Under the pieces are notes generated by a model. That model did no database searches and was not told the origin of the DNA. It worked only from the letters and a program-made list of their open reading frames with translations. A DNA stretch of 64,000 nt from Sphaerolaimus hirsutus (lineage: Eukaryota > Nematoda > Chromadorea > Monhysterida > Sphaerolaimidae), in contig OZ038452.1 of the NCBI GenBank assembly GCA_964036195.1, forward strand, positions 11,464,704 to 11,528,703. Direction: 5' to 3'. Position 1 is the first letter of the stretch. Every line of letters begins with the position of its first letter. The translations under genes were made by a program, and so were the position numbers. This document shows positions 2,123 to 30,390 of this stretch, piece by piece.

Positions 2123-2128
2123 ACTCAC

Positions 2129-2239: not shown

Positions 2240-2410
2240 CTGTGCGCCTGCGTGTCGCACAAATTAGCGCCAAATTGACACACTAGTTAACACATCTGTG
2301 ACAACTGGTTGTGTCGACTCAGATTTCCACTTCACGTGTCGCAGAGCGATCTTCCAATGCACTTTTGTCTAATTTTTATTTTTTTTAACGTTGCCGCATG
2401 GGTCCTCTGT

Positions 2411-5906: not shown

Positions 5907-6073
5907 CTCGACAGAAGTAACTTGCAATCAGCGCCGGGGAGGTGCACGTTGGCCAGGGTGACCAGTGCCGCGGGAAGGCCGTTCACATGCGGCCCCAGCG
6001 CACACAGGCCCGTCAAGCGCGAACGGTCACACAGCACTGTGGATTTGAACTTGAGCGTGCGCGCATCGAATAT
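5907..6073 (-). CDS. NHL-repeat gene, exon c
   Basis: The acceptor TTTGCAG precedes I-F-D-A-R-T-L-K-F, the C-terminal strand of an NHL-type blade; the exon enters in phase 0, matching exon b. It continues through a segment with L-T-G-L-C-A-L-G. The exit is uncertain: a donor after 5922 or after 5907 is possible, both phase 2. Confidence 0.65.
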
Positions 6074-6366
6074 CTGCAAAATGGTTGAAATGTTGAATAT
6101 GATCGTGTGCTGAGAACCGACTTGTTTTCTCCCAAACAGTCCAAAGGAGATTTTGTGTACCAACCACTTTTTGATCAATGTAGAATCAAATTTTAATACA
6201 CCTATACTAGATGGCTCGAGATATTTTTTCAATATTTAAAAGATATGTTGAATACACTCCCCGAAATAAAAAAATCTCTGCATAGGGTCCAATCCCGAAA
6301 ATTCGAAAAACCAATCCCGACCCCAAAAAATCAATCCTGTTTAAACCCTACCTCGCGTTCACACAC

Positions 6367-6558
6367 CTGGACTTTATGATTATCTTTCACGCAGAACTCG
6401 AGCCCACCCTTGCTGCAAATGACTGCCGACGGCTCATTGAAAGTTCCATCTGGGCACACCAGACTGCGTGTGCGCACGGATGGACAATAGCCACTTTCTG
6501 GCTCTAGGCCAACTATTTCAGGCTTCTGGCGCTGCGACGCACCGAAGTAAACCTTCAC
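6367..6558 (-). CDS. NHL-repeat gene, exon b
   Basis: 64 codons between acceptor GTTGCAG and donor GTGTGTGA, phase 0 at both ends. It ends in F-N-E-P-S-A-V-I-C...F-C-V-K-D-N-H-K-V-Q, a clear NHL-type motif (P..v.......vaD..NhrVq) completed by I-F-D-A in exon c. It contains several cysteines, unusual for intracellular NHL proteins. Confidence 0.75.
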
Positions 6559-6725
6559 CTGCAACATAATTGACTTTTATTATTTGAATTACGAAATATT
6601 AAGGCATAAATAAACCAAAGAAATAAATAGGTATACTGGCCACTGCAAGGCTATTTACATATGAATGAAGACATTTATTGTAAGGAAAAGATTATAATTT
6701 ATCCGCATTTTTTGCATGATCAAAC

Positions 6726-6916
6726 ACAAGTCAGGGCTTTGCGTGCAGTCAGTATACTGTAATCTACACCAACGACGTGGTTATAGGTGTCGCAGAATAT
6801 CCATTGTCCAGACACCTCGTTGAAGCTCACTCCGATTGGACCATGGAATGTAGAGTATGGGTTGCCGAACCTATCGCCGCGGGTGCCGATTTCACGCACC
6901 AGGATTCCCTTCAAAC
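6726..6916 (-). CDS. NHL-repeat gene, exon a (first propeller blade)
   Basis: The acceptor CTGTAG precedes a 191-base exon, phase 1 in and phase 0 out. It holds R-F-G-N-P-Y-S-T-F-H-G-P-I-G-V-S-F and W-I-F-C-D-T-Y-N-H-V-V, the standard NHL pattern (fG.P.gi.v...g.i.v.Dt.NhrV). The incoming phase-1 base matches the upstream exon at 34466-34738, so the intron between them is 27,549 bp (6917-34465) and contains the whole LTR element. The donor after 6726 gives the phase needed by exon b. Confidence 0.75.
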
Positions 6917-6981
6917 CTACAGGTAAAGTCAAACAAAATGAGGAAATTTAAAGAAAGCCAAGGGTGCGTGGAATACGTATA

Positions 6982-7078
6982 CCGTATATCCTCGATTAAG
7001 CCCCCCCTCGGTAAACTATCTCCCTTGAATAACTCCCCAATGTTAGCTAACTGAGGAAAAAATAACTCACCCCGCTTT
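6982..7078. repeat. CCGTAT-family MITE fragment
   Basis: Begins CCGTATATCCTCGATTAAG after a TA, followed by C-rich blocks and AATAACTC. No right end is found; the LTR element begins 130 bp further on. Same subfamily as 32865-32948 and 54028-54405. Confidence 0.55.
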
Positions 7079-7209
7079 AATGGGTGACAAAGACGTCCAT
7101 GTATGAAGGACGTTCTTATTTATGTTTTATTCAAAAGCCATGTATTTTTTGCAGCGGGCCTGTACCGGTGTCCATCCAAACCCGTTGTCCATCCAGGCCC
7201 ATCTAGGGG

Positions 7210-7213
7210 GACT
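7210..7213. repeat. Target-site duplication, left copy (GACT)
   Basis: GACT directly precedes the 5' LTR and GACT directly follows the 3' LTR (30387-30390). A 4-bp duplication is within the range of Ty3/gypsy integrases. Confidence 0.85.
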
Positions 7214-7870
7214 TGTTATGTATGTGCAGAAGGTGATTCAGTATGTTGATACAGCTGAGTAAAAATACTACTGTTTGCTCTAGAGTAGGAATTACTACAG
7301 TTTGTTTGGAAGTATTATGCATGTTTTATTTACTTAAGAAGGGCCGCTGACTTGTCGCTAGGCTATATTTACATTCTATTGATCAAATATCCGACCTGTC
7401 GCTGAGCAGTGTTTGCGTGTTTTTATAGTGATTTCTGAGGTATATAAGCAGGGCTTTGGCTGGTGTTCTGGACCGGTCAGTGAAGCTTGGAAGTGAGAAA
7501 GCCAAAATAAGGCTAAAAAGGACTAAGAATACTTCTGTGAAGTTGTCCCTGAGGATCCAGAACACTGGTCAAAGGCACCAGTTCCGATTTCATGCTAGCT
7601 ATTTACAGGTGTAACTTAATAAACAGTCTGGGCAGTGTTCAAGTTGAAAGTGAATTTAAAGAACCAGAATCAAGCAAAAGAAGGTATTTGGAAGACAGTG
7701 TTGGTGCTGAGAGGCCTCACTGCACTTTACCATTTTGTGTAGTATTTAGCATCAAAACAGTCTATCCTTTGCTTAAGTCTTGTAAAAGAAAATCAACAAC
7801 TAAACTTATAAGACAAGATCAACAATATCGATCAGCACACACCTTCGACACAAAGAGCTCATATCGTTCA
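7214..7870 (+). repeat. 5' LTR
   Basis: 657 bp, starts TGTTATG and ends CGTTCA. I compared it line by line with the 3' LTR and found no difference, implying recent insertion. A TATATAAG box at 7441-7448 and AATAAA at 7618-7623 place U3 before and R/U5 around these signals. Confidence 0.97.
7441..7448 (+). promoter_or_regulatory. LTR TATA box
   Basis: TATATAAG inside the 5' LTR, about 230 bases from its start, followed 177 bases later by AATAAA. Likely the core promoter of the element; the 3' LTR has the same at 29957-29964. Confidence 0.65.
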
Positions 7871-7871
7871 G

Positions 7872-7889
7872 TGGTGATCGTACAGTGGA
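7872..7889 (+). promoter_or_regulatory. Candidate primer-binding site
   Basis: A TGG begins two bases after the 5' LTR, the usual place for pairing with a tRNA 3' end. The following bases (TGATCGTACAG) do not match a tRNA I can name, and do not match the tRNA-Asp found in this window, so the primer is unknown. Confidence 0.3.
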
Positions 7890-7940
7890 GATTCACTACT
7901 TGGCACTCGTCCAAAATTGTCAATTTGGATAATTGACAAA

Positions 7941-7950
7941 ACGGTGAGTC
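7941..7950 (+). promoter_or_regulatory. Leader splice donor of the LTR element
   Basis: ACG|GTGAGTCAG, a strong 5' splice site (GT at 7944-7945) in the untranslated leader, 74 bases after the LTR and about 315 bases before the giant frame's ATG. In retroviruses such a site makes subgenomic envelope mRNA; here it could do the same (inference). Confidence 0.55.
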
Positions 7951-8259
7951 AGAGACGCGAAGTTTCAAGCCTGAAACAAAAGTGAGTTTTATATTTTTGC
8001 AATTTGGGGGGAAGGGTGAGCCCGACAGAGAGTTTTCACACTCTATTTTAATCTGCGCTTTTATAAAGCCAGAGACAGCAAATAGCCCTTGAGCTATTAC
8101 AGCAGAAGGCCACTTAATAACTTTTTGAGTGTGCCTTATAATCTGAATCACCCCGGTGAAACAGAGACAGTCAGCTGAAAAAAGCTGAAAATTTCAGAAA
8201 ATAGTCACATTTATTTGAAAATTGCACAGTAAATTTGAGTTGGAAAACTCTGTGTCAAA

Positions 8260-11200
8260 ATGGCGGACCAGGACCCATTCGATCCTGCACTAGTTACAGA
8301 CGACCAATTAAATATTCCACCTGAGCAACCTAAATTCAATGACGATGGCACACTTTTTATACCAGCGCTGCCAGTCATTCGCGCTGAATTGTATTCAGTC
8401 GCTGAAGCGGAATTTTGGATAAAAATTATACAGAAACATCAAGCAATAATTTCCGCATGGGTTTTGAGTAGAGATCACCGAGCCGCCATATCGGCTCACA
8501 AAAAGATTTTAGACGAAATGATTCAGCAGATAAAAGATGTTCGAAAAAAATTACTCGAATACGTCACACGCCGCTCGTCAGTTTCAAGCACTGCAAGTGC
8601 TACTCAAGATCAAAACCCGAGCGGTTCTGGTGACAATTTCAATAATCAAATACCCGTAACTACAGCGCCAGAAGATGCTGGCTCGGTGACCTCAAACCTA
8701 GATAATACAATGGTGCTTGCCAACACATCGCCACCACATAACCTGGCAGGCACATCGCCTCCAATTAATGCTGACCCTCCGGCGACACATTCAAATGGCA
8801 CGCTGCCACCTGCGACCACGCCGCCGCCAGCAATTGTCACGCAGCCACCTACGCCAGTTGCTGCCACGGCACAGCCTGTGTCAACAACACCAAATGTGCA
8901 TTCGCGATCAAACTCGCCTACAGGTGTGCTGAATTTTGGCGGAAGAACTCAACCCATTTACGCAATGGCAAATGCACAAGGGGGTCCTATCACTACTCAA
9001 TCAGTGTCAAGCCCACCCCCAACCATGTCAAACACCCTTTTGAACGCAAGTGTTTTGCCTACTAGCCATATAATTCATACCCCGCCCCCACAACCGCAAA
9101 ATATAGCACATGGAAATTCATCTAACATGCCAATTGACTTATCCCAAACACCTGGTGTCCCAATTCCAAACATGGAGTTTAAAAATGCCGCTCATGAGTC
9201 AAATTGCATGGCTGACCAAAAGACAGTAGATGCATTTCCATGGCTACGCGAATTATTATTAGAAAAACAAGACATGTGGCGCTACCTACGTGATACTACT
9301 CATGATAGATTGCAAAATCTGGAAGCTGACCTACGTCAAGCCAAGGACGATAAGGATATATCACGCAAAGATGCGCGTGATAATCTCTTCAGCGCTCCAT
9401 ATTTTACGGCCCTGTCAGAACGCGTGCCAGCATTTACAGGTAGCAGGTCTCAGGGGGCTATGAATCCATCTGTGTGGGTGAAAAATTTAGAAGTAGCATT
9501 GTGTACTTTGGCAGTACCGCGCCGTAAGTGGCCTCTGGCCATTTCTTTCCGGCTACAAAATGAACCAGCTAGATGGCTATCAGGGCTTTCGGATGCTGAT
9601 AGATCTAATTACGATCGTATAAAGGAATTATTTCTGAAAACATATACAAATAGCGCAGTCAGCATGAGCGCTAGGGAATTATTGGCCCGTTCCCGCCAGG
9701 GCAAAAATCAATCAGTAAAAGAATTTTTTCATATTTTAAAAGACACACACACTGCTGCATTTTCACATTTAAATGATGACTCACGAGAAAATGACTTTCG
9801 AATACTTTTTGCCAATGCAATATCCCCCCAATTGCAAGCATTTCATAGAACATTGTCTCCAGAGGAGCAATCCCAGGACATGTTGCTGTTGCTTGAGCGC
9901 CTGAGCGTATATGAATGCCAGTGCATGCCAAATGATGCGCGCCAAAATGACGCATGCATTGAAGACCGCCCGCGTGCACAGGGTGGTGATAATGAAATAC
10001 GCCGGGGAACTTTTGTGCCGCGTGGTAGATTTGTAATGGGCCGACGCCGCTTTGAGCGACGTCCATTCAACAGCGATCGCAATAATTCGGCCCCACCCAC
10101 CCGCGATGACCCCCTCACACAATTGCAACAGCGCCCTGCTGAAGTTTTACAAGCGGTACAAACAGTGCCGCAACGCAGTGCACCCACTGCCGCGATAAAT
10201 TCTACTGAAAAAAGTGAAATTTCACAAAAATTAACTGAAATTAGTGGAGAAATAAAAAAAGGCTCCGAAAGAGTTGATAAATTAGAATCAAAATTACGAG
10301 ATGACACGCAAGAACTGCGTCGTGCACTCTTACAAGTAGGACAGCAAATTTCTACTCAAAATAGGGGACCCCCCATGAGAAGGGGGGGCCCACCACAAAA
10401 TTTTACCCCCCGAAATCCAGCCCCATTCCGTAGTGGCGGAGCCACAACAAATTTCTCAGGGGGGGGACAAAATAATAGTCCCGGTAACCAGTCCCCATTT
10501 CAAAGGGGGGTGGGCCCACAATACGCCGGGGGTGCCACCAACCCCGCGCCGCGAACGTGTTTTATCTGCAATAACACCGGACATGTTGCTCGCATGTGTC
10601 CTAATAATAATAATATGAGCAATAATCGAAGTTTTTCACAAGGAAATAATAGACCCGGGGGGCCGTCTCAAACAGTTTCGGCGATGCAAGCGGGAATAGA
10701 ATTTTCAAATGAAAAAAATATTATGTCCGCTGAACATTTATTTTCCATGATTGCACGACCATTGACCGGCCGTGCTACCGTTCGGAATGTCCAGCGAACG
10801 CCTTTAGGTCCGCGCCGCGCAGTCCACCAGGCGATATTATGTCCACAAATGGACTTAAAAAGGACAAAAAGTTGTGTAAATACAAAATGCGACTTTAAAA
10901 TGAAATGTCGCCGCCATGCTTTTAGCTCCGAACGATTTGAAAGTCAAAAAAACAATCGTGATGAGTTTATGTTTGAGACAACACATGCGAACAAAATGTC
11001 GGTAGGTAAATATCACACGGAAACAAGCCGTGCTAAGACACGTATCGATACAAATTTAAACAAGCCGTTTCAAACCACAAAAGGCCGCGCCGCGAGGCGT
11101 CTGCAAAAAAACCAAAACAAGCGTACTCACGGCACGATATGCAAATGGACTGATAGTTGCAAACGCGTTTTTCCGCGGCCGAGAGTTGCGATTGCGCTGC

Positions 11201-14200
11201 TAATAGCGTGTGTTTTTGGATTCCCACTCATTCGAGAATGCTTATCCGTTAAAAATTGGACTAAAAATAGCAAAATGTCCAATAGAAGCGATGCAACCCC
11301 CAGCCCGGGTAGAACGTCTACTGTTTACGCATTTGATCACACTGATCAACTTCCCGCCACGCCCCACAGTGAGTTAATTAAGTTAGCTACTGAAAGAAAA
11401 TGTTCGACCACAATAGAAGAATGGGCAAAGTGCCATTATTGCGATACGCTGTTGAATGAATACCCCTCATTTGTACAGCGCCCCGTCGAATCCGTTCGCA
11501 CCTGCACACGCCAAACCAGTTGGCGCTCACCGCCAGCACGCCAGCGGCGTCCACTGTGGGTCGGGATGACACAGAAGCCGCCAGGCAATTATACAGTATG
11601 TGCCAAGGAAGTGCGGCACAGTTTCAAGGTGAGAAAAGGGATAATTTGTTTGCGAAAATTTGTGAATTCGCGTGTAATCTTGTGCACAGGTGTCGCGCAA
11701 AAAAATGATGCGCAACAATTAAAAATATTGTGTGAATATTTTGACGTTAAAAATTCTCGAGCTGACAATAATAAGAAAAATTTTTCAGCATGTCTCAAAC
11801 ATGAAAATTACCATGCAATTTGGTTCGAAAAAATGTATGAAGAACCCATAAAGTTAAATAAAGAATTTAAAGCCAAGTGGTCAGGTGATAAAAAGACAAT
11901 AATCGAGCTTGACCTCGAAATAAATATTTTGAGCATATTTCTTACCAATAATATTTCCCGCGCACAAATTACCAAGAAAACGACACCTGCGCACAAATTT
12001 ATACGCGCATGCGCAAAGCGTCATGCATTGAAAATTAATGACCGAATAATTTATGCAAAAATATCTGAAAACAATTTTGTATTTCTACTTTTGAAAATTG
12101 TCGCTAAACTTAGTTGTGAAAAACATGAGAAGATGAGTGACTTGATAAAATGGGCTGATTATTGGTTTGACGGCGTAGGCGCCGCGCCGGCCCTATCGAC
12201 CGACGCCCAGCAGTCTGTGTCATCTGGACATCCAGACGTGGCCCCCGTTGAAATGATGGCGGCGACGCCGCCCGCCCACGCGCCGCCACAGCCACAGAAC
12301 AATCCCGCCGTGCAGCAATACATGAATTTGATGGCACAGTGCCAACAACTCGGGCAACAGTTGCAGCCGGAGCAGTTGCTGACGTGCCAGTATACGCAGC
12401 AAACGACAGGTTGGCATGTCGATGCCTGTGAAAAATGTCAAGTACTTGACATTATTGTTTTTTTCATGACTACAGGCTATCAACAGTCTACCTACCCCCC
12501 GACGCCGGGCAACCCGTTCTTGGTGCCGGCGCACCCCGCCATGAGCACCATCGGGCCGCCGCAGATGCAGTTCGGCATGAGCGGCCTGCCCACGAACAGC
12601 CCCGCCCCCACGCCCGAACTGCGACAGTATTTCACAGTGAATGCGCCGCCTACAACGCGAATGGGTGAGTTGCGAAATAATTACTTCGCAAAATGTGTGT
12701 TTCACTTAATGACTCACACAGAGCCACACGGTGACATGGACGTGACGCTGGAAACGGCCGAACGCACGGCATCGTGGGTGGCCGACGCCACGCAGAACGC
12801 GATGGCGCCGCCAAAATCGCCATCTGTAATTCCATGCGGCGACTCAGAGATGGACGCCACAGGTGATCTGAGTCTGGTCCGTGTTTTTAAACAAACTCGA
12901 ACCACCTTAGATCATACAGAACCCGCCGTCGACTACAACGTCAACCAACCGGGGGAACTAAATCGAGCGTATATTGCGGCCACGACAGCAGAAAAGCCGT
13001 CCAAAAAGACCCGATACAAGCACAAGCGTGTCGCCGTGCCTGTCGTGCCCCAAGTGCAGCAAACAACGCGTGAGCTAAAAATTTACAGTTTTTGTACAAA
13101 TAAATTGTGTGCAATAAATAATGCCTATGCGCTTAATGAGCGAAAATTATGCGCAAAACATATTAGGAAAATGGATGTTAACTCAAGCTCTGAAGATTTT
13201 TACAAGAAAAATGATCGGAAAAATCTGCACAAAATGTGTGTGAATTTTGCAGAAAAGTATCTGACAGATAAAATATATACAATGAAATTCCAAATATATA
13301 CAATAGAATTCCGGTGTAAAGTGTCTAGCGTAACAAGATTGAAATTTGGAAATACGCCAAGTTTTATGAGTAAAATGATTCTGTACACTTACCTAAAACA
13401 GGAAGCACCTAGAAATAAGAAAATAAAAACTCAAAAAACACAATTGCACGAAACTAACTGCGTGCAAAAATGCCATTTTGTGTGTTGCAGAGCGATACAA
13501 GTGCCATACTGGCGGCACCTCCGCGATAAAAGAGCTACAGAAGCTGCCGATCGCCAGACCGGCCGCCCGCAGCCGGCCCATCAAGTCAAGGGAATCGCTG
13601 GCAAAAAAACTGTCGGCCTCAAGCTCGGAGAAGCCGACCACATCGGGTGGGTGTCTGAATATTTGGTGCCATTATGCATGAAAGATGTTGAAAATTTTAT
13701 AAATAAATCACACCCAAAAATCATGCATAATGGGGACCACCCATGTAAAAATAGCATAAAAATAGGTATATATGTTGCCCACAACCCGTACGCTCCTAGT
13801 GGAACGTACCGTGGAAAAGTTATTTTAGAAAATAAATTACGTGGGTTTTGGTACAATTTTGACGACATAACATTATTTATGCCAAGTAAAATAATAAGTG
13901 GTGGGTATTTATATGCTATGAAATCTGAATATCAATATAAACAAAGGATTAATGCAAAAACAATTGCCGAAATCCCACCTGGCATTTTACAGGTGTCCGT
14001 ATATTTAAAGAAATATTTAAAAAATGTACGTGAATATTTTTATGAAATAAAAATTTTATGTGATAATTTATTTGAGTCAAAAGGGTATTGCAAATTAGTA
14101 GATTCATATGAAAATTTATGTGGAAATTTATTCGAAGCTAAAAATTATTGTAAACTCAAACGCTCGTGTGAATTTAATTTAAGACATTTGTCTAAATTAG

Positions 14201-26200: not shown

Positions 26201-27144
26201 CAGCCCAAAATAATAAGTTACATTATGAACAACAAAGTGCTAGGGGTGCAGAGTCACCAAAAAATAAGCTAGAAGTAGGTGATGCTGTGTATGTGAGACA
26301 AGCAATCATTCCAAAACAGGGACAGTCAGCTAAGCTGATGCCCAAGCTCATCGGACCACTTGTGGTCAGGCGAGTGTTGGACACTTCAGCTTATCTGGGA
26401 GCATTGGGACACCCAGAAAGGGAATCACAGTTGATTCCCATGAGAAGAATTTGTAAAGTAGTAAGTGATGTAGAAATGAAGAAAAATAGGTCTGGTGAGG
26501 TTTTGCAAAGTTTGATCCATCAAGTTAAGTCTAAACCCTTGCAGCCATTCCTGAGCATGGCTGTGTCTCAGCCAGTGCCCCTCCAGATGACCCCTGGTGG
26601 CACCATGATTGGTCTGCCAGACTGGACAGATTGGCGCCAAATTGTTGACACCACCATCAATGAGTATGCCTGCATCAGAGTGGGCGACGAGCTGATTGTC
26701 AACAACCATTGGGCTCGCACTCCCACTGGTGCTGGGTATTGGGACAAGCCCTACCAGTATGCTATCCGCTGGACATGCACACCCAGGGGCCAGATTATGC
26801 GCAATCAGTTTGTGGAGTGGGAGAAGCCCCTGTACAGTGTGAATCTGCCGACAGTCAGCACTGACAACAGAAGGCATTTGTCCGGCAGGGTCCAGTCCAT
26901 TGGTGCAGCATCCTGCGAGCACAGAGCTGGGGCGCCGCCGTGGCTCTCCCCCTGGCCTCATGATGGCCTGGGGTGCACTGATGTGAAGGGTGGTCCCTGG
27001 GGCTCAGAGGGGGCAGTGGTTCGCCCCGTGCCATTTGTGAAGTATCAGGTTGGTTCTGAACATTTTTGTTCTGAGGTTTTTGAGGTGATGAGGGATGAAG
27101 GTCATGGTGAAACATCTAAGTGTGTGGAAATTTCTAGTGAATAA
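8260..27144 (+). CDS. Giant Gag-X-Env-Pol polyprotein, 6,294 aa
   Basis: One uninterrupted frame of 18.9 kb starting at ATG in a good context (AAAATGG). Layout by residue: Gag N-part 1-120; Pro/Thr-rich linker about 120-330; Gag core about 390-560; CCHC knuckle 767-781; unrecognised basic and AT-rich sequence about 800-2640; 19-residue tandem repeats about 2649-2740; a cysteine-containing unknown domain about 3000-3480; envelope-like ectodomain and membrane anchor about 3487-4100; a second small membrane segment about 4286-4350; protease around D4575; reverse transcriptase with YVDD at 5215; RNase H from about 5362; integrase about 5720-6100; then a 230-residue C-terminal extension. Typical Ty3/gypsy polyproteins are 1,000-2,000 aa, so this is several-fold larger. 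Several GT-AG intron-like segments are embedded in frame. Whether the entire frame is ever translated as one protein is unknown. Confidence 0.9.
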   Translation: MADQDPFDPALVTDDQLNIPPEQPKFNDDGTLFIPALPVIRAELYSVAEAEFWIKIIQKHQAIISAWVLSRDHRAAISAHKKILDEMIQQIKDVRKKLLEYVTRRSSVSSTASATQDQNPSGSGDNFNNQIPVTTAPEDAGSVTSNLDNTMVLANTSPPHNLAGTSPPINADPPATHSNGTLPPATTPPPAIVTQPPTPVAATAQPVSTTPNVHSRSNSPTGVLNFGGRTQPIYAMANAQGGPITTQSVSSPPPTMSNTLLNASVLPTSHIIHTPPPQPQNIAHGNSSNMPIDLSQTPGVPIPNMEFKNAAHESNCMADQKTVDAFPWLRELLLEKQDMWRYLRDTTHDRLQNLEADLRQAKDDKDISRKDARDNLFSAPYFTALSERVPAFTGSRSQGAMNPSVWVKNLEVALCTLAVPRRKWPLAISFRLQNEPARWLSGLSDADRSNYDRIKELFLKTYTNSAVSMSARELLARSRQGKNQSVKEFFHILKDTHTAAFSHLNDDSRENDFRILFANAISPQLQAFHRTLSPEEQSQDMLLLLERLSVYECQCMPNDARQNDACIEDRPRAQGGDNEIRRGTFVPRGRFVMGRRRFERRPFNSDRNNSAPPTRDDPLTQLQQRPAEVLQAVQTVPQRSAPTAAINSTEKSEISQKLTEISGEIKKGSERVDKLESKLRDDTQELRRALLQVGQQISTQNRGPPMRRGGPPQNFTPRNPAPFRSGGATTNFSGGGQNNSPGNQSPFQRGVGPQYAGGATNPAPRTCFICNNTGHVARMCPNNNNMSNNRSFSQGNNRPGGPSQTVSAMQAGIEFSNEKNIMSAEHLFSMIARPLTGRATVRNVQRTPLGPRRAVHQAILCPQMDLKRTKSCVNTKCDFKMKCRRHAFSSERFESQKNNRDEFMFETTHANKMSVGKYHTETSRAKTRIDTNLNKPFQTTKGRAARRLQKNQNKRTHGTICKWTDSCKRVFPRPRVAIALLIACVFGFPLIRECLSVKNWTKNSKMSNRSDATPSPGRTSTVYAFDHTDQLPATPHSELIKLATERKCSTTIEEWAKCHYCDTLLNEYPSFVQRPVESVRTCTRQTSWRSPPARQRRPLWVGMTQKPPGNYTVCAKEVRHSFKVRKGIICLRKFVNSRVILCTGVAQKNDAQQLKILCEYFDVKNSRADNNKKNFSACLKHENYHAIWFEKMYEEPIKLNKEFKAKWSGDKKTIIELDLEINILSIFLTNNISRAQITKKTTPAHKFIRACAKRHALKINDRIIYAKISENNFVFLLLKIVAKLSCEKHEKMSDLIKWADYWFDGVGAAPALSTDAQQSVSSGHPDVAPVEMMAATPPAHAPPQPQNNPAVQQYMNLMAQCQQLGQQLQPEQLLTCQYTQQTTGWHVDACEKCQVLDIIVFFMTTGYQQSTYPPTPGNPFLVPAHPAMSTIGPPQMQFGMSGLPTNSPAPTPELRQYFTVNAPPTTRMGELRNNYFAKCVFHLMTHTEPHGDMDVTLETAERTASWVADATQNAMAPPKSPSVIPCGDSEMDATGDLSLVRVFKQTRTTLDHTEPAVDYNVNQPGELNRAYIAATTAEKPSKKTRYKHKRVAVPVVPQVQQTTRELKIYSFCTNKLCAINNAYALNERKLCAKHIRKMDVNSSSEDFYKKNDRKNLHKMCVNFAEKYLTDKIYTMKFQIYTIEFRCKVSSVTRLKFGNTPSFMSKMILYTYLKQEAPRNKKIKTQKTQLHETNCVQKCHFVCCRAIQVPYWRHLRDKRATEAADRQTGRPQPAHQVKGIAGKKTVGLKLGEADHIGWVSEYLVPLCMKDVENFINKSHPKIMHNGDHPCKNSIKIGIYVAHNPYAPSGTYRGKVILENKLRGFWYNFDDITLFMPSKIISGGYLYAMKSEYQYKQRINAKTIAEIPPGILQVSVYLKKYLKNVREYFYEIKILCDNLFESKGYCKLVDSYENLCGNLFEAKNYCKLKRSCEFNLRHLSKLDYFETRKYPPYLGDTLVVALNMKTEEFALLKIVNHKNIPNWKVFVQYLMLEFDLKISAVLNMALYSETENENPTYALQHTETNVKLKTSNKITNENKYLSRPTPNASAATAPTTPCPTVYSELCRQSCALPLSFRQCLALMAGHCEGTGAMAHVRLQRYTDGLKMALQKKTGRSDMLTYLRTPRRFKKNETRQLRDVFRKAGRVPKPQKIRAVENRPKMAEKLVSLYTHPTGVKDKIIGGFDAENNYRNTLKNSHHKTDPNKPLPTYPKSYDCNRYQFCAASCNGHYFRAAPAAGIKSAQEHLRSPPNLAPLRQGFHHRNPPNGLATPENPSDPLLNATNVSIVNESPSKMSKIISIRLKTFAESSLINLCRQSVAKTTPKSAWKKQLKNKNGVSANKINKFSGDNARLKLFPRYGPLKYTDATELARFHVLAHFQLKPTMIIRISIYARAPENQGHLLTIFQFLEPFQTLARCHKYRSLTLNIRQDNIGACPENQGRFYNRAECTSNGKWSSVGNVTRPIKLTNVKIEKLLWLYIKMSPKHTRAVKTMIIMIVSSGKLEMCPHIGTAPCHLEMLIHHTTVDKIQKILTKSANMGIAPWHLELAINNITVVKIQQITKTLILTGTPPWSFIKLESWHRVGNILRTDDVKNTILLPTVDCISIIGPGPCMAGKFQLLVIAGKFSPDDNMAGKFQLLVIAGKFSPDDSMAGKFQLLVIAGKFSPDDIIAGKFQLLVIAGKFSPNDIMAGKFLIIAGKFQNFLDIARKSKIVKTFKTCRKPKKMIKKSKTTNLTNSPDDKIFQNSWKHPETFTTTVMKLIANPMCQNPQDKHVQISIVRKVKMVRGVKVDNMHIYSPCFHRRAQNLRMCEHSLTPEVSKKQGGGPQKSLKFLIPCKNTPVKRIFEILKNQKLLLYGQVNIPSGSIFYAEFNGLGENDICALPEKPSVQFILKTISRLEWAKICTKSYIVQGKVFFCVLVKYTYSQKLSKIKIHVNKQMSIYAGLKRDTENPAILPSMPEPSSEPRKVGPTDIDENLQFEQEYCHPDGGFLWWNYDCDKLCVKFDTPLSVTTPGPPVFGTAVPVYTPVKCFPDQFVGQGYPELACVLGGCSQQYMRVANGLLGQTELLSNVTFPIKDFSINMLNSKHRLSHIGGQDAYWWGMAVTGQVARGNQKLVHGEFLIEFVETLIRDYVGTFINHETFKMLDNTKSMLDNTKSKIFVSCKTLCKALCCTLLCSEKVTTYHLAELLQRPPVVDGRILMVCLRHQYFFLVKPSELKAQTSHSGVFAFTMVDAIEWTVMAHVLRFKPVSVAMVYHALTGGFFLERCKLRVTENWKKLEIKSSPFLAKLTALNHDKILELAIHYFNALERENIIVSSPIPCKEAINNEFSLHPLSATLRGEWVPRHVREMMPIPKVREAALNMARSLRWRVDRADSMIRHENYPVDMESPYLGISIPQLRLIATEEKATVMSDTEDKFVQQASHHFVPTGLRQESPTRDVTTCTNVVGFLMLWFLSKENRKFLFWVSLVSCIIPILGREFQICPRPIGAWYLALPEVPNCDLYTATSFRATEQMPVNEVSVAIYVQRRAPVSTHASFCQTRRHEITACTNALFSHYIYEYHDSYVFTPLGVCMNMMHVISGNSTNEYKLRRIQPQVWATANTVDLHFPTWNSCHKLQVDNYILTTGTVSSFNHQQIITDLDSAPNCLAGAGVCTSEKGTLFWNADKLKPASCPYEYIGEFAGQRHNATVIVPSEQSAFSIRAGPVSVSCVPRQVYTTEQGPLISIMSSNDSSQAMCQQMFNERCDQPAKMTFHHFRTGKIATNTAVQHQFMHQLLSRQAHQNFETLRRQICILARNDALIVRAMAHVSPMAAARIILKDHTINAEFMGDALSLVHCHKVESEHIHWSHQVNGTCYELLPVTVEGKLYFNIPASPDLVTNANEIPCSDRQATVFRQSNGTYLSQNGDNVVQVHVHESPAFVNPRFTMQNVTFNRSIDLSGLIMDNAVAFSNLRYLHMQQVDAQKKIDRLIHYTSLFSLNGETTSAMLRGDGFENMVSHAGNLLLNASGRMIDHEYDLVHMITTSSVPSAIRGPWQMFLNVMWTLLLILMIIVTVYALIRFPWVRAAVWRAIKWPVLAVIKARRWTLQTCQTLQDKKTRIQRRRKGSIRTRTPPVSRQGGNNNIEELVYESFVNAPHKVEVVRPNRAPGTVEQQNESLNKAKATRVVTRVEVERPTTLEIPSRDAGANDGSARTIPVPRPTNLDVPSMQVGLGDYPIPSRLHRVPRFEAAPEVLRAARKSKPATTKHTLGSMVSRRAKFIAVIMIFLTNLQTGSATKYPPTPSDPYGDLWENYMFLRQVLTICAMIVVIWHWWLGRQEEFDEVDEVDDPVEEETNEYKAEVPFEYLPQYLPLASFGVGTFATEQINTSSPGWNTPGWCSPQERCRLMLRSLNSLFSLSERTEATMATCIARWTKQNEKPSESKAACPAEPQMRGRKLSRSRSESHLTRSRSESHLTKHRSPKPKHNVIRITKLKRRCQSIQIPSVHSKEIQDQMQLLIETGADLEYLNALLHDRQPTIDDTGVTLTAVGTLRGRPVTCVLDTGASMSCVNRKIIDELGIGYRPTTITIAVADGADLVPLGTTNITMLIDGVQFTVHALVLEGITNDVYIGFKTLKQWGDFQVRFYRDNENKNLDVGEIKFSSGKVIRFNLPQEESVNHVLVMYNAEKVRLKPFGCASLKVYAPNITQEFMTMVLKDRKLEKNYVCAPIERMMRLHKVKLYPTLIDLERKFDAERNTFVLTGSLPIFNPNRADVTMPADRPIVKAKQLGLVLHRALSVLPEKEILLAAPTKPANLGDSPTPIYITAHTTPDGNQIPVLITPQYGEHVKKLVVKGSECQERLTEWLDCLKAIHPTKNISLMSLDEKSMLQIFPEAAANSQPEIGKERLCALKKVAENVNEVAMKKAKSLSAAAAKQAAEEAAAKRDMPNAVATVRAIHGDPSENRLKLPNMAQPIVPQLSREERHQIIRRDANFKDTLLSDEQKEEFIEMLLKYDQVFVLELADRSECSALVADIRLKDDSHPGFLAKPYPVSHFEQQVIDHWIIRQISLGLAEFGVSRFSSPVFLVKKPTAEPEEIPSIKNWRTVFDLRRINKLCKMEQGTVAPLKQLLETLMQGVIWSSFDGLSAYDMIALSESSRDLFAISTSRGILRFKSLPQGAAQSTGIFQLAMSVIFFNCAHTLCYVDDICTVSDTIPQHVHDVEDVLQRFQRFRFRIALRKTVFAARRIKMLGQYISAEGREVDKSKIEAICKLPPPKDKTGVRSFLGLANWHRAWIKNFAQNTRSLNKLLTTKDNQPFIWTREAENEWNLMKTKLMEAPILAAPDYDKKFDLRTDGSKKGISGILSQKADDSRDHVIGFYSRTLSKNESKWASYDFEMLAIVSSLVHWRSIIHFYKVDVLTDCAAACYLLRDKGTQNPRIARWALVISAFPGVSIKYTPGKTNPADVLSRDFCDSDLAEQPENMPDPAEEVLNDEKMEICGEDCGSSCELQNKMENHVKKHLLQAMNTRSRTRGKESYKESAKPADMPWGDPQAPNAMSNCAPHDSQIDMLTLAAHEPEVPQVTVTDSAGVSHKALIPSEKSCERTPDQIAISQLPDDADYDKANFAEFLEQDGIVEKFKHGQANDAFCSAMMKFLDDGTVPKDSNLARKVVLSATQYVVDDGLLYFFDRKHDLHHALLLYVPEELRKPVLALHHASGWGGHQGTMRSYQRMLNCFTWHNAYRDMADYVRKCKLCFAHKARAGQVVAESKQLPQARHPFDILYFDVSHIMHNSSRAEYKAVVTALCPFSNYPFAAPLRDLRATTIAQALMTHVFSVTGFPRLCISDQGSNLLALGECFKFLRVGHQQTLLANPQANKVEQFHRFKTSLGIMINQFAKSHEDWPDTLQTLMLALRTSYSVSLGLSSYEIVFGFKPSLFFLPQALQRPSLALRTSGAPLGMVREAIFQSWKTAQNNKLHYEQQSARGAESPKNKLEVGDAVYVRQAIIPKQGQSAKLMPKLIGPLVVRRVLDTSAYLGALGHPERESQLIPMRRICKVVSDVEMKKNRSGEVLQSLIHQVKSKPLQPFLSMAVSQPVPLQMTPGGTMIGLPDWTDWRQIVDTTINEYACIRVGDELIVNNHWARTPTGAGYWDKPYQYAIRWTCTPRGQIMRNQFVEWEKPLYSVNLPTVSTDNRRHLSGRVQSIGAASCEHRAGAPPWLSPWPHDGLGCTDVKGGPWGSEGAVVRPVPFVKYQVGSEHFCSEVFEVMRDEGHGETSKCVEISSE
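9430..9932 (+). other. gag: Gag core (retrotransposon gag domain)
   Basis: Helical domain with F-T-G-S near its start, a W-V-K-N-L-E segment, a conserved A-R-W-L stretch and L-F-L-K-T-Y, followed by a helix with S-V-K-E-F-F. This is the Ty3/gypsy Gag capsid-type pattern. Preceded by a Pro/Thr-rich linker and followed by an Arg-rich region, as expected of a nucleic-acid-binding Gag. Confidence 0.8.
10558..10602 (+). other. gag: Gag zinc knuckle CCHC
   Basis: C-F-I-C-N-N-T-G-H-V-A-R-M-C fits CX2CX4HX4C exactly. It lies in a Gly/Asn/Pro-rich basic tail typical of nucleocapsid. Confidence 0.9.
10680..12400 (+). other. Unrecognised basic segment after Gag
   Basis: Lys/Arg/Asn/Cys-rich translation without a family I recognise. 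It includes one hydrophobic stretch (about 11184-11232) that could span a membrane. From about 11520 to 11628 a different frame reads a Ala/Thr/Ser-rich peptide, ends in a GTGAGA donor and rejoins the giant frame at 11690 if the 61-base GT...CAG segment 11629-11689 is removed. From 11700 to 12130 the giant frame is AT-rich yet stop-free. Confidence 0.4.
12410..12475 (+). other. In-frame intron-like segment, 66 bases
   Basis: ACAG|GTTGGC ... TGACTACAG|GCT; pyrimidine-rich tract (ATTGTTTTTTTC) before the AG. Phase 1, length 22 codons, no stop in the giant frame. Confidence 0.6.
12665..12721 (+). other. In-frame intron-like segment, 57 bases
   Basis: ATGG|GTGAGT ... CACACAG|AGCC. Phase 1, 19 codons, no stop in frame. 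Consensus-quality donor. Confidence 0.65.
12863..12919 (+). other. In-frame intron-like segment, 57 bases
   Basis: ACAG|GTGATC ... CATACAG|AACC. Phase 1, 19 codons, no stop in frame. Confidence 0.55.
13070..13490 (+). other. Frame-shifting intron-like segment, 421 bases
   Basis: ACGC|GTGAGC ... GTGTTGCAG|AGCG. Phase 1 but 3n+1 long, so removal moves the reader from the giant frame to frame 2, which is open and Lys/Arg/Ser-rich from 13491 to about 13647 and then meets another GTGGGT donor. The segment is AT-rich yet stop-free for 140 codons in the giant frame. Confidence 0.5.
13491..16200 (+). other. Unrecognised AT-rich stop-free segment
   Basis: The giant frame continues through Lys/Asn/Ile/Tyr-rich sequence. 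At 14056-14160 a degenerate internal repeat (N-L-F-E-[SA]-K-[GN]-Y-C-K-L) appears twice. The patch 14520-14880 is more GC-rich and Arg/Leu-rich. No domain is recognised. A random sequence of this composition should contain a stop every 15-20 codons, so the open frame is itself the signal. Confidence 0.4.
16204..16480 (+). repeat. 57-bp in-frame tandem repeat (19-aa unit), 4 copies plus remnant
   Basis: Units start at 16204, 16261, 16318 and 16375, with a shortened fifth from 16432. Each encodes M/I-A-G-K-F-Q-L-L-V-I-A-G-K-F-S-P-D/N-D-x and contains two copies of GCCGGAAAATTT. The reverse strand is also open over the array. Few substitutions separate copies, so the expansion is recent and kept in frame. 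Confidence 0.95.
17720..17926 (+). other. In-frame intron-like segment, 207 bases
   Basis: CATG|GTGAGTTTTT ... CACCTTGCAG|AACTG. Phase 1, 69 codons, no stop. Contains a 21-bp tandem duplication (17797-17838) that also keeps the frame. Strong donor and acceptor. Confidence 0.7.
18146..18373 (+). other. In-frame intron-like segment, 228 bases
   Basis: ACAG|GTGGGTTC ... CATCCTCTTTCAG|CCACC with a good pyrimidine tract. Phase 1, 76 codons, no stop. AT-rich compared with both flanks. Confidence 0.7.
18718..20640 (+). other. Envelope-like viral glycoprotein region
   Basis: An in-frame internal ATG (18718) is followed by a basic then strongly hydrophobic stretch ending about 18800, which looks like a signal peptide. 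The next roughly 560 residues are Cys-rich and carry several N-glycosylation sequons (N-S-T, N-A-T, N-D-S, N-G-T twice, N-V-T, N-R-S, N-A-S). A transmembrane helix follows at about 20470-20550 (L-L-L-I-L-M-I-I-V-T-V-Y), then a basic cytoplasmic tail. This architecture is that of a type I fusion/attachment glycoprotein, probably acquired from a virus. I cannot assign it to a fusion class or viral family by reading. Its place upstream of pol, in frame with it, is exceptional. Confidence 0.7.
21115..21325 (+). other. Second small membrane-protein segment
   Basis: An in-frame ATG is followed by a short basic start and a hydrophobic stretch (A-V-I-M-I-F-L-T-N-L) ending in G-S-A, a plausible signal-peptidase site. 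About 25 residues later comes a second hydrophobic helix (T-I-C-A-M-I-V-V-I-W-H-W-W), then an acidic tail. It could be a small type I membrane protein separate from the glycoprotein, or a multi-pass tail of it. Confidence 0.45.
21676..21735 (+). repeat. Short SR-type tandem duplication
   Basis: The unit encoding S-R-S-E-S-H-L-T is present twice in a row (30-base period), making an Arg/Ser patch between the membrane segments and the protease. Confidence 0.8.
21920..22300 (+). other. pol: Aspartic protease
   Basis: Retropepsin-type core with V-L-D-T-G-A-S at 21976-21996 (catalytic Asp at 21982, residue 4575) and a downstream hydrophobic V-Y-I-G-F-K in place of the usual I-L-G. Cleaves the polyprotein. 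It sits after the envelope region. Confidence 0.9.
23340..24110 (+). other. pol: Reverse transcriptase
   Basis: Ty3/gypsy-type RT. Visible blocks: S-P-V-F-L-V-K-K, W-R-T-V-F-D-L-R-R-I-N (first finger/palm block), F-D-G-L-S-A-Y-D (first catalytic Asp), L-P-Q-G-A-A-Q-S-T and Y-V-D-D at 23902-23913 (active site). All catalytic residues are present, so the enzyme may be active. Confidence 0.95.
24290..24700 (+). other. pol: RNase H
   Basis: F-D-L-R-T-D-G-S-K-K-G-I-S-G-I-L at 24340-24387 supplies the first catalytic Asp (24355). E in the Y-D-F-E-M-L-A-I-V helix and D in V-L-T-D-C follow in the expected order. This is the Ty3/gypsy RNase H arrangement directly after RT. Confidence 0.9.
25420..26460 (+). 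other. pol: Integrase with GPY/F-like module
   Basis: An N-terminal zinc-binding region holds H-H-A-S-G-W-G-G-H and C-K-L-C. Catalytic D-D-E are in F-D-V-S-H (25645), I-S-D-Q-G-S-N (25828) and K-V-E-Q-F-H (25927). I count 32 residues between the second Asp and Glu, three fewer than the usual 35. The C-terminal M-P-K-L-I-G-P-L-V-V-R-R matches a GPY/F module typical of Ty3/gypsy integrases. Confidence 0.92.
26461..26544 (+). other. In-frame intron-like segment after integrase, 84 bases
   Basis: AGTA|GTAAGTGATG ... CCCTTGCAG|CCATT. The donor is the best-matching one in the element. Phase 0, 28 codons, no stop in the giant frame. Confidence 0.65.
26545..27144 (+). other. C-terminal extension of the giant frame
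   Basis: GC-balanced coding with W-T-D-W-R, Y-A-I-R-W-T-C and N-Q-F-V-E-W motifs; no family recognised. It looks like an exon (26545-27048) because a donor at 27049 (TATCAG|GTTGGT) and the acceptor at 27472 would splice it in phase 0 to a zinc-knuckle exon. Without splicing the frame ends at TAA 27142-27144. Confidence 0.45.
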
Positions 27145-27436
27145 GGGAGTGGAAATGTTTCTGTACAAAACTCTTGTTGACCCATTTAGTGCCTTTTTGT
27201 AAATTCTTATGAAATTTGACCTATTCCACTGCCATGAGAAGCCATAATAACTTCTGTTGGAGATTTGATCTCATGTTTTGAATCATATACAGTAACTTCT
27301 GTTGGAGACTTGTGCAGTAACCTTCCTGTGCAAAACACCTACTGTTGCTCAATCCTGTATAAAAAGTTTCCATATTTTTGCTCTTGGAGGCAGCTAATCT
27401 TGTATAGTATATAAATCCAAAAAAAAAAGGGCAATC

Positions 27437-27841
27437 ATGACTGCAACTGTAAAAAGTACTGTTTCTTTTCAGCTGGAAAGGAGACAGGAGCCCCCGAGCT
27501 TCCCCCAGAGGCAGAACAGGTTTGATAGGGAAGTATGTTATAATTGTGGTAAGATTGGTCACAAACAAAGGGAATGCAATAACAGACGATTTTGCCCTAG
27601 GTGTCAGGTTTTCAGCCATAAGGCTGGTAATTGTGTTTATGGTATAAATGATAGGTATCATAGGGAAACTGCTCATGAAAGAGCCAAAGTCAACTTACAA
27701 CGCTTTGCTCAACAGATAAAAACTGAAGTTATGGGGGTAGTTATGTCACAACTTTCCTCTCCTGAAAAACAGCCTGCTCCTCAGTACAATCGAGGCTTTC
27801 GCGATTCGCGCCGGGCAGAACCTGACAGCCTCGATCATTAA
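27437..27841 (+). CDS. Double CCHC zinc-knuckle exon or small protein
   Basis: Two knuckles, C-Y-N-C-G-K-I-G-H-K-Q-R-E-C and C-P-R-C-Q-V-F-S-H-K-A-G-N-C, both CX2CX4HX4C, in a basic Gln/Arg-rich context: a likely RNA-binding protein. An ATG exists at 27437, but a polypyrimidine tract and AG (TTTCTTTTCAG at 27462-27472) suggest it is an exon starting at 27473, joined in phase 0 to the giant frame's C-terminal extension. The frame ends at TAA 27839-27841. It gives the element a second nucleocapsid-like module far from gag. Confidence 0.65.
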   Translation: MTATVKSTVSFQLERRQEPPSFPQRQNRFDREVCYNCGKIGHKQRECNNRRFCPRCQVFSHKAGNCVYGINDRYHRETAHERAKVNLQRFAQQIKTEVMGVVMSQLSSPEKQPAPQYNRGFRDSRRAEPDSLDH

Positions 27842-27941
27842 CCAAATGTTGTCTTGCGGGCAGCCAGAAACGAACTGCGCCGAGATTGTGAACAGAACTT
27901 TTGTGCGCTACACTAACTCCAAGTACACCACGGACTTCTAG
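27786..27941 (+). CDS. Overlapping alternative frame at the end of the zinc-knuckle exon
   Basis: Frame +1 relative to the zinc-knuckle frame continues 100 bases past its stop and reads A-F-A-I-R-A-G-Q-N-L-T-A-S-I-I-N and then C-G-Q-P-E-T-N-C-A-E-I-V-N-R-T, protein-like with two sequons, to TAG 27939-27941. An AG at 27783-27784 could be its acceptor. It may be a decayed or alternative terminal exon. Confidence 0.4.
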   Translation, partial: TIEAFAIRAGQNLTASIINQMLSCGQPETNCAEIVNRTFVRYTNSKYTTDF

Positions 27942-27949
27942 TGGGTGCA

Positions 27950-28850
27950 CCTTTCCCTTTTACAGTTGCTTTTGCCTTTACCTTGTATTTCATTCTTTCT
28001 TGTTTCCACTACCTTTGTGATGCATGTCAGATTGTGTTGAGGTGAGCATGGATGAGTTGTTGAGTTGTTTCCCCTGGTGCAAACTTTATTTCCTTGCTTT
28101 ACAAGGAAAGTAAAGCTTGTTCACAGAATTCACTCTGGTAATGGGCATAGGCCCATAACTCTTTTAGTATTTTTCATTTTATTTCTCTTCTCCTTAACAA
28201 AATTTTCCTAATAACTTCTACTCAAAAAATTAATCAAACAATTTTCTTTTTCATTATTCATTCACAAATACATTATAACACACATAAATTATAATTACAA
28301 ATTATAATTTCTACAAATTTTACAAAAAAATATTTAAATTTTTACACTTAATTTTAATAATCAAAAATTATTATTAATTTTATTATTAAAATTAAATACA
28401 AGGGTAAACATAGCACCATTTGGAAAATGTAAATTATACCTGTGTTGCATTTAATTTATAGTGTTCAATTACTCATATTAAGTTTATTATATTATTTTGT
28501 TCATTCATAAAATTTTAGTCTCGCTGTTGTCTTTCTCAAAAAAAATCAATTAATTACACTTTTGCATAAACCAAATTTATTCATAAAGTACAATATTGTA
28601 CAGTTTTGGTGCAAGTTTTGTATAGTTTTGATATAGGTTAGCAGAGTGTTTTACCTGTCACATGTACAGCCGTTCTCTACCACACAACATCACACAAACC
28701 AGTGACAAGGCCCAATTGACTACTTGCCACAGCAACTTTGGCACCTTACAACAACTCATCACAAACAACAACTCATCACAAATTGCTACCACAACACAAC
28801 CTGCCATGAGATCAGTACAAAGTACCTGCTGACATCCAAACACAACTTGC
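27950..28850. other. AT-rich non-coding part of the element
   Basis: No coding signal. 28180-28600 is extremely A/T-rich. The 3' end has CA-rich CACAACATCACACAAACC-like sequence and an AG (28850-28851) just before the next open frame. Confidence 0.6.
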
Positions 28851-28856
28851 AGTGAA

Positions 28857-29189
28857 ATGGTGGTGATGAACCCTGTTGTGGCCCAAACTTCACCTGGAGA
28901 GAAGATCTATTGCTTTGACAACCAGCTGGCTATCATTCCATCTGGGCAAGGTCAACCAGTTTCAGCACCTTTGGATCCATCACCAGTGGGACTGAACATT
29001 CTCAGTGAAGCCAGGAGGAAGTATCTGAACCTGCCACCATATGAAGTGGTGCCTACACCCAATGGTTGGACAATGACTTCAAGGGCACACAGAAACAAAG
29101 GATGCTCCACTCAGTCATCACTTCCATACATGCTGCAGCCTGAAACAGAGGGACCTGAGGAGGATGAGGAGGAGGAGAAGTGTGATTAG
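28857..29189 (+). CDS. Hypothetical 110-aa protein of the LTR element
   Basis: ATG 28857 to TAG 29187-29189. Pro/Ser-rich with an acidic C-terminus (E-E-D-E-E-E-E-K). Codon usage is like the coding parts of the element. Preceded by CACAACTTGCAG, a possible splice acceptor, so it could be translated from a spliced RNA. Position before the 3' LTR is where retroviruses keep accessory genes. Function unknown. Confidence 0.45.
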   Translation: MVVMNPVVAQTSPGEKIYCFDNQLAIIPSGQGQPVSAPLDPSPVGLNILSEARRKYLNLPPYEVVPTPNGWTMTSRAHRNKGCSTQSSLPYMLQPETEGPEEDEEEEKCD

Positions 29190-29708
29190 GAGCCACTTTA
29201 GTAGCTTGTGGTTGAAGTACTTTCCTGCTGCCTAGCCTTTTGACATTTTACTTGCACCTTTTTCTCTTTTTGACAGTATTAAGTTACAGTTTAAGCAGTT
29301 TTTTTGTGTGCTATCAGAGTAGCACAAGTATTTCTTTTGGGGGGGGACCCCATTTTTCTAATGTCAGTTTTACCAGTGGTTTTGACGTGTTCAGTGAAGT
29401 GATTGCATTTGCAGAAAACACTTGAAAACTTTCAAAAAAAACAAAAAAAAATATAAAAATTTTAAAAAAAAAAATATTGAAAGCTTCAAGTGGTTTTCTT
29501 GGCTTGGAGTTTGCCCCTGTCATTTATGCATAATAGTACTAATTTTGGTGTCTTTGAGTATTGTGCCTTAGAGCTACTTAGCATTGGGTCAACACAAAAA
29601 AATTAGAGTTAGTAGGCTGCCCTTTTCTGTTTTCTTCTGGTCAATATTAGTTTGTTTGGGTTCTGACCTTTTCTTTGGTGATTATTTTTAGTCTCATTCG
29701 GAGCCTGA
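29190..29708. other. 3' non-coding region of the LTR element
   Basis: T-rich, with a G run at 29338-29346 and A runs at 29438-29476. No coding signal. Confidence 0.6.
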
Positions 29709-29729
29709 GATTTAAAAAATCCGGGAGAC
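29709..29729 (+). promoter_or_regulatory. Polypurine tract
   Basis: GATTTAAAAAATCCGGGAGA-type purine-rich run directly before the 3' LTR, in the position used to prime plus-strand synthesis; interrupted by a few pyrimidines. Confidence 0.55.
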
Positions 29730-30386
29730 TGTTATGTATGTGCAGAAGGTGATTCAGTATGTTGATACAGCTGAGTAAAAATACTACTGTTTGCTCTAGA
29801 GTAGGAATTACTACAGTTTGTTTGGAAGTATTATGCATGTTTTATTTACTTAAGAAGGGCCGCTGACTTGTCGCTAGGCTATATTTACATTCTATTGATC
29901 AAATATCCGACCTGTCGCTGAGCAGTGTTTGCGTGTTTTTATAGTGATTTCTGAGGTATATAAGCAGGGCTTTGGCTGGTGTTCTGGACCGGTCAGTGAA
30001 GCTTGGAAGTGAGAAAGCCAAAATAAGGCTAAAAAGGACTAAGAATACTTCTGTGAAGTTGTCCCTGAGGATCCAGAACACTGGTCAAAGGCACCAGTTC
30101 CGATTTCATGCTAGCTATTTACAGGTGTAACTTAATAAACAGTCTGGGCAGTGTTCAAGTTGAAAGTGAATTTAAAGAACCAGAATCAAGCAAAAGAAGG
30201 TATTTGGAAGACAGTGTTGGTGCTGAGAGGCCTCACTGCACTTTACCATTTTGTGTAGTATTTAGCATCAAAACAGTCTATCCTTTGCTTAAGTCTTGTA
30301 AAAGAAAATCAACAACTAAACTTATAAGACAAGATCAACAATATCGATCAGCACACACCTTCGACACAAAGAGCTCATATCGTTCA
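29730..30386 (+). repeat. 3' LTR
   Basis: 657 bp, offset exactly 22,516 from the 5' LTR throughout, TGTTATG...CGTTCA. TATATAAG at 29957-29964 and AATAAA at 30134-30139. Followed by GACT. Confidence 0.97.
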
Positions 30387-30390
30387 GACT
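30387..30390. repeat. Target-site duplication, right copy (GACT)
   Basis: Matches 7210-7213. Confidence 0.85.

Follow-up and report, generated by a model that had tools for sequence, protein, structure and literature searches.

Layout of the element

The window analyzed here is a stretch of 64,000 nucleotides (GC content ~43%) from the nematode Sphaerolaimus hirsutus (GenBank assembly GCA_964036195.1, contig OZ038452.1, positions 11,464,704 to 11,528,703). It contains a retroelement of ~23 kb bounded by two long terminal repeats (LTRs), at 7214-7870 and 29730-30386, which are identical at 657 of 657 bases. Between these LTRs lies one uninterrupted reading frame on the + strand (8260-27144), spanning 6,294 codons, as had been claimed in a previous sequence-only reading of this DNA. 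Inside this frame, the domain order is Gag, X, Env, protease (PR), reverse transcriptase (RT), RNase H (RH), and integrase (IN). The LTRs have TG..CA termini (TGTTATG...TTCA), and the element, hereafter copy A, is flanked on both sides by a 4-bp target duplication, GACT. This agrees with the excerpted account of most LTR elements, which have TG..CA LTRs and target duplications of 4-6 bp (PMC12440569). The features of the element are as follows.

7210-7213, no strand: left target site duplication GACT, by sequence reading
7214-7870, +: 5' LTR, 657 bp, identical with the 3' LTR
7871-8259, +: leader, with a primer-site-like stretch starting with TGG 1 base past the LTR, and putative donor-like sites
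8260-27144, +: giant single frame, 6,294 codons, from the list of open reading frames
9541-9760, +: Retrotrans_gag (capsid), Pfam E value 9.3e-05, slightly below the curated cut-off
10552-10605, +: CCHC zinc knuckle (nucleocapsid), Pfam
10760-17280, +: X slot, open in frame, weakly constrained, with no Pfam family above cut-off
16203-16446, +: 57-bp tandem repeats within X, the unit being a multiple of three
17281-18717, +: X4, a conserved segment at the X/Env junction, found in both sister families examined
18718-18795, +: possible Env signal peptide (in-frame ATG and a hydrophobic stretch, judged by eye, below the hydropathy threshold)
18796-20520, +: Env fusion glycoprotein of the Monjiviricetes/glycoprotein B kind, ends approximate (Pfam match at 19426-20055)
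from 20458, +: hydrophobic segment, the Env membrane anchor
21946-22209, +: aspartyl protease, Pfam
23566-24054, +: RT, with YVDD at 23902, Pfam and motif
24250-24642, +: RNase H, Pfam
25396-25941, +: IN, zinc-binding domain and D..D..E core, Pfam and reading of the translation
27437-27841, +: small downstream frame, 134 amino acids, with two CCHC-like knuckles, one by Pfam and the other by eye
29730-30386, +: 3' LTR, 657 bp
30387-30390, no strand: right target site duplication GACT, by sequence reading

When the frame was scanned in pieces against Pfam, the enzymatic signatures listed by the sequence-only reading (PR, RT with YVDD, RH, and IN) were all recovered. The IN core gives only a weak rve match (E value 0.017), but its acidic D..D..E residues are legible in the translation. 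The Retrotrans_gag match scores 23 bits for a cut-off of 24.1, while Env scores 45.3 bits as Monjiviricetes_fusion for a cut-off of 27; to glycoprotein B, Env shows weak sequence matches only. From 10.7 to 19.4 kb, the same scan found no known family. The PR-RT-RH-IN order and the gypsy-type RT and RNase H mark the element as Ty3/gypsy-type. Likewise, a search of a protein database with the RT-IN part retrieved gypsy-type polyproteins (64 of 6,723 candidates at E values up to 0.001), the best at ~30% identity. No close relative of Env was found in a large protein database at E values up to 0.001 among 3,971 candidates. No relative of giant length was found there either: a search sized to reach proteins of ~5,157 amino acids returned three matches of ordinary length (1,630 to 1,689 amino acids).

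The length of the frame is far beyond chance, because ~157 stops would be expected from base composition in the 10.7-18.7 kb block (three sub-regions summed) and none is found.

Copies and relatives in the host genome

A 300-base LTR probe gave 40 scored matches among 51 candidates in the host genome. Eleven of these, at 97 to 100% identity, represent the element's own family, i.e., five copies with paired LTRs (A to E) and one solo LTR. The remaining 29 are more distant, 75 to 82% identical along part of the probe; the single one that was opened belongs to a BEL/Pao element. Target duplications of 4 bp were seen at six insertions examined, the solo LTR among them. Within each of the five copies, the LTR pair is identical over all the bases compared (3,052 bp in total), i.e., 657 bp in A, B, and E, 656 bp in C, and 425 bp in D, in which the 5' LTR is shortened. 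Despite differences between copies of up to 8%, depending on the region, they look young because their LTR pairs are identical and each has a 4-bp duplication. We infer that several lineages have been mobile lately, although LTR gene conversion could also contribute to the identity.

Copy B (C3:11248608-11271780) lies 223 kb from copy A and differs from it at 3 of 23,175 aligned bases. Because its flanks are unlike those of copy A and it has its own target duplication, GAAA, copy B is an independent full-size insertion, and the differing flanks and separate duplication rule out an assembly artefact or a segmental duplication as its origin. Insertion at the giant size, proposed from the window alone, is thus borne out at two sites. 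The sequence-only reading had added that absence of the 10.7-18.7 kb block from all other copies would make the giant size a private rearrangement or an assembly artefact. That block is whole in B and D and partial in C and E, and a 1-kb DNA probe from the X1 segment of X (12000-13000) finds five places in the host genome (5 of 5 candidates scored), which are the five copies.

Three of the five copies with paired LTRs are rearranged. In copy D, the stretch 10466-27155 is inverted behind the shortened 5' LTR. Copy E is without 17956-29198. In copy C, whose contig is small (52 kb), 13056-23613 is replaced by a 9.2-kb segment that has the pol and env of a BEL/Pao element in antisense but no detected LTR pair, and gag has an in-frame stop at window position 9784. 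These rearrangements, together with the small contig of copy C, would be in keeping with a private rearrangement or assembly artefact in the window, with material inserted into one ordinary gypsy copy, or a misjoin. However, copy B is whole at a second site, where both the flanks and the target duplication are different, X1 occurs in five places, and relatives have open frames of up to 6,806 codons. In our view, copy B and the relatives already refute such an origin, and we consider an artefact hardly credible.

Two of the rearranged copies are of interest in themselves. Copy D (G000:C2:25.41-25.43 Mb; L017, L018) is young, with identical LTR ends and a target duplication, yet its interior is inverted, which suggests a rearrangement during or shortly after insertion. 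Copy C (G000:C352; L014:5891-9500, L015:1-5566) is a mosaic of two element classes in one young insertion. Separately, the host contains a BEL/Pao element of ~9 kb (G000:C4:3992099 on; L023:457-990, 989-8656) in which a single frame of at least 2,556 codons encodes Gag, Pol, and Env; its Env is 23% identical to that of the giant element. Its LTR has ~170 bases in common with the giant gypsy LTR, including stretches of ~87% identity, a common part that would be compatible with a possible exchange of promoters between retroelement classes.

Giant frames extend well beyond the five copies. Searching the host genome with the RT-IN protein, we scored 50 of 1,701 candidates and counted the first 48 matches (67 to 100% identity), for 24 of which the surrounding frame reaches 5,000 codons or more. 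With Env, 71 matches were scored from 1,524 candidates, the first 59 being full or near-full relatives (51 to 100% identity). Of these 59, 28 have a frame that reaches 5,000 codons or more, the longest being 6,806; 27 of the 28 have no stop inside the match, while the remaining one has a TGA, and three of the 28 are copies A, B, and D, which leaves 25 further loci. These giant-frame counts are among the matches listed, and some relatives on small contigs are possibly second haplotypes. Shorter frames, from 711 codons upward, hold the remaining 31 of the 59, and the last 12 of the 71 consist of six fragments and six Env of ~26% identity. By these genomic comparisons, the giant frame is a lineage trait and is not private to the window copy.

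The domain order was verified in two relatives, read in pieces, which represent sister families: F1 (C1:17.08 Mb; RT-IN 79% identical to that of the window) and F6 (C6:19.83 Mb; 70%). Both have Gag, X4, Env, PR, RT, and IN in the same order as the window copy. Piece by piece, identity with the window copy is 30 to 47% for X4 and 42 to 59% for Env. The LTR pairs of F1 and F6 are also identical, over 650 bp in F6 and at least 351 bp in F1, where the edge of the piece truncates the comparison.

The X slot

Between Gag and X4, the X slot is open over ~2,174 codons in the window copy, ~3,067 in F1, and ~2,054 in F6, with no stop in the reading frame in any of the three families; the other two forward frames have 102 to 240 stops each. 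In the window copy, X shows no Pfam family above cut-off, Pfam and PHROGs giving weak matches only, and the pieces of the X of F1 that were scanned (2,959 amino acids) also gave only weak Pfam matches. X4 matched no solved structure at E values up to 1.

Between the three families, X is almost unrecognizable. Blast with window pieces detected no similarity between X and the sister families at an E value of 1e-3, under settings that detected the N-terminal Gag at 25 to 29% identity, and a DNA comparison of the main X pieces between families was blank. With phmmer, X4 scores 147 to 154 bits between families, while X scores at best ~11 bits (window-F1) and 1.4 to 5.7 bits in the pairs that involve F6. 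The best window-F6 score (1.4 bits) is within shuffled controls (best shuffle 5.8), and the F1-F6 score (5.7 bits) is at their edge (5.3). For window-F1, two piece pairs (11.2 and 9.3 bits, the second at the start of X4) exceed all 20 shuffles (7.6). Since two piece pairs stand above all shuffles, a faint shared ancestry of the X of the window copy and that of F1 is likely.

Within the family, the copies allow the constraint on the frame to be estimated from the ratio of nonsynonymous to synonymous substitution rates (dN/dS). In the codon comparison of copies A and D, dN/dS is 0.00 in pol, 0.05 in the env-to-PR interval, 0.04 in env, and 0.49 in X. Over X, these two copies show 379 differences, for which neutrality has a P value of 1.2e-09, and no stop is seen where 17.4 are expected. 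Between A and E, dN/dS is 0.11 in gag and 0.51 in X; between D and E, it is 0.60 over X; between A and C, which are comparable within X only to 13056, it is 0.25 in X1. The piece 17149-17955 of copy E was left out of the codon count; together with its neighbor, it is open in one frame across 516 codons. All seven indels in the X of D and E, two copies that were not selected for openness, are multiples of three. In the non-coding 3' stretch of copy C, by comparison, 3 of 14 gaps are multiples of three and 11 are not. Judged from these substitution patterns, purifying selection is acting over the frame, and it is weakest in X.

Codon usage gives a fainter signal. With codon models built from the other two families, the true frame is preferred in 34 to 72% of X windows, depending on the segment, and in 56% over the X of the window copy. 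The figure is 58 to 93% for gag and env-pol, whereas the preference is seen in 0 of 11 windows of the non-coding 3' stretch and in 9 of 52 windows of flanking host DNA. Base composition in X is nearly flat over the three codon positions. This weak signature, the lack of a Pfam family above cut-off, and the presence of donor-like and acceptor-like sites are what would be expected if X were mainly an intron or a non-coding spacer, open by accident, with Gag-Pol or Env made by splicing it out. Against this stand the frames without stops in three families, the dN/dS of ~0.5 with no stops in the X of D and E, and the indels that keep the frame, and we judge a non-coding X to be quite unlikely. That X stays free of stops and frame shifts makes its translation most likely. 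On the pattern of its sequence, it looks coding, weakly constrained, and very fast-evolving.

X might alternatively be captured host or foreign coding sequence of known function. There is a precedent in Burro, a planarian element in which BCL2, BIR, MATH, and ankyrin motifs are described in the excerpted review (PMC6431247), and X does contain stretches differing in composition. However, neither the X of the window copy nor the F1 pieces show a Pfam family above cut-off, and the X1 probe, the only X segment so probed, finds the five copies and nowhere else in the host genome. Such a capture is therefore unlikely.

A bolder possibility, which we advance tentatively and at less than even odds, is that X is a near de novo region of 2,000 to 3,000 codons, purged of stops and translated, in which the sequence has almost wholly turned over, and that either its length sets the output of Pol or it is the zone of an arms race. 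Turnover was compared in three families, and about two dozen further giant-frame loci suggest generality. If true, such elements would keep generating long, novel stretches of protein within a functioning virus.

Proposed expression and relation to known elements

Together, these findings lead us to interpret the element as an endogenous retrovirus of the Ty3/gypsy type (Metaviridae-like), inserted recently and apparently intact, whose giant single frame is laid out as in Burro, at a probability of about 0.85. The sequence-only reading had likewise considered it Ty3/gypsy-type, apparently intact, and young, which is supported by its gypsy-type enzymes, open frame, and identical LTRs. In the proposed mechanism, a full-length RNA driven by the LTR would serve as both genome and mRNA for the polyprotein, which would be cut by the element's own protease, and the RNA would be copied and integrated by its RT and IN. 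Env would most likely also be made from a spliced mRNA in which the leader is joined to a site just upstream of Env, a scheme modeled on other retroviruses and Cer1. X would supply a set of protein segments that evolve fast and act as accessories or spacers. We propose that its translation may also hold Pol low relative to Gag, given that Gag and Pol are divided by neither a stop nor a frameshift.

Candidate signals for such splicing can be found. Splice sites were scored with generic matrices. The leader has three donor-like sites (GTGAGT/GTGAGC at 7944, 7982, and 8016) of at least 8 bits, for 0.31 expected in base shuffles (fraction 0.004), and all three are present letter for letter in copy B. 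Upstream of Env, two acceptor-like sites (18562, 8.2 bits; 18567, 7.4 bits) precede a pair of in-frame ATGs (18598 and 18718), after which comes the hydrophobic stretch ahead of Env. A single tRNA gene, for Asp, was found in the window, and it does not match the primer-site-like stretch, whose TGG lies 1 base after the LTR.

Several points weigh against this interpretation. In X, the X3 segment alone is compatible with neutrality for A-D (P 0.13) and A-E (P 0.21), with D-E at P 0.048; a 600-base window at 13451 has a dN/dS of 1.42; and the codon signature is weak relative to that of gag and env-pol. Only one of the three donor-like sites is kept letter for letter in copy C, and two of the three in copy E. 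Equal- or higher-scoring splice-like sites occur elsewhere (donor-like at 18433, and acceptor-like at 27966, 26116, and 16773), so the choice of a leader-to-Env splice rests on position, and it would be one of several candidates. In addition, transcription, splicing, cleavage, and movement are predicted from the sequence.

Downstream of the giant frame, coding evidence for the 134-amino acid frame is thin. Compared with copy C, it shows seven amino acid-changing and five silent codon differences, and copy C has a 1-base insertion near its start. The frame also overlaps an acceptor-like site at 27473.

Among known elements, the closest in layout is Burro, a comparison made from its published description and not from its sequence. 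The sequence-only reading had cited Burro as a precedent for size but had overlooked its layout and treated a continuous Gag-X-Env-Pol frame as unknown. In fact, the excerpted review describes, for Burro (GYPSM1 and relatives), a Gag-X-Env-Pol arrangement in one frame of 4,873 or 5,140 codons, with an env in frame between gag and pol that matches mononegavirus fusion glycoproteins, accessory open reading frames, and a largest member of >30 kb (PMC6431247). The window copy resembles this in having one giant Gag-X-Env-Pol frame, with an Env of the mononegavirus type between Gag and Pol (PMC6431247). Relative to the figures in that excerpt, the frame is longer here (6,294 codons, and 6,806 in a relative, against 4,873 or 5,140), while the element is shorter (23 kb against >30 kb for the largest Burro) (PMC6431247). 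Two further differences from Burro as described there are that Pfam found no dUTPase between PR and RT (22300-23500 and larger pieces) and no BCL2, BIR, MATH, or ankyrin match in X (pieces, E values up to 5) (PMC6431247).

Other elements share single traits with the one in the window, according to the excerpted sources. Cer1 of Caenorhabditis elegans is also a Ty3/gypsy element in which no stop divides gag from pol, and its polyprotein has 2,272 amino acids (PMC10309623). In Cer1, splicing also yields an mRNA for another protein, whose exons mostly lie in the frame of the polyprotein (PMC10309623). However, it is about one-third the length, and the part in the env position comes after pol and is reportedly unlike retroviral Env (PMC10309623). 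The mosquito Pao elements named Anakin have likewise acquired a chuvirus-type glycoprotein, but they are BEL/Pao and not gypsy (PMC7642597). Plant Ogre elements are also giant gypsy elements, but their size comes mostly from long LTRs and not from a giant frame (PMC6431247).

Apart from Burro, we found no frame this long in the open-license literature searched. Within that literature, this kind of element is already known; what looks new is the longer frame, the clan itself, and the almost complete turnover of X. One implication is that the planarian case would be joined by a second clan of retroelements in which Gag, X, Env, and Pol make up one giant frame, and in which copies are young and frames exceed the lengths cited in the review. 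By GC content, the window (~43%) is unlike the planarian Schmidtea mediterranea (reportedly <30%). The copy pairs and sister families of this clan make it possible to test how a retroelement balances Gag, Env, and Pol when neither stops, frameshifts, nor separate genes divide them, and why thousands of codons of unrecognizable sequence stay open.

Elsewhere in the window, a directly adjacent inverted repeat with 100-bp arms, 95% complementary, is found at 45991-46190. The tRNA-Asp gene is at 52512-52588, near tandem GGCGCC-rich repeats (52671-53546). Finally, in another contig of the assembly, a COX1-like match (G000:C762:1905-3239) has 14 TGA in a 520-codon frame, which fits a mitochondrial contig in which TGA encodes tryptophan.

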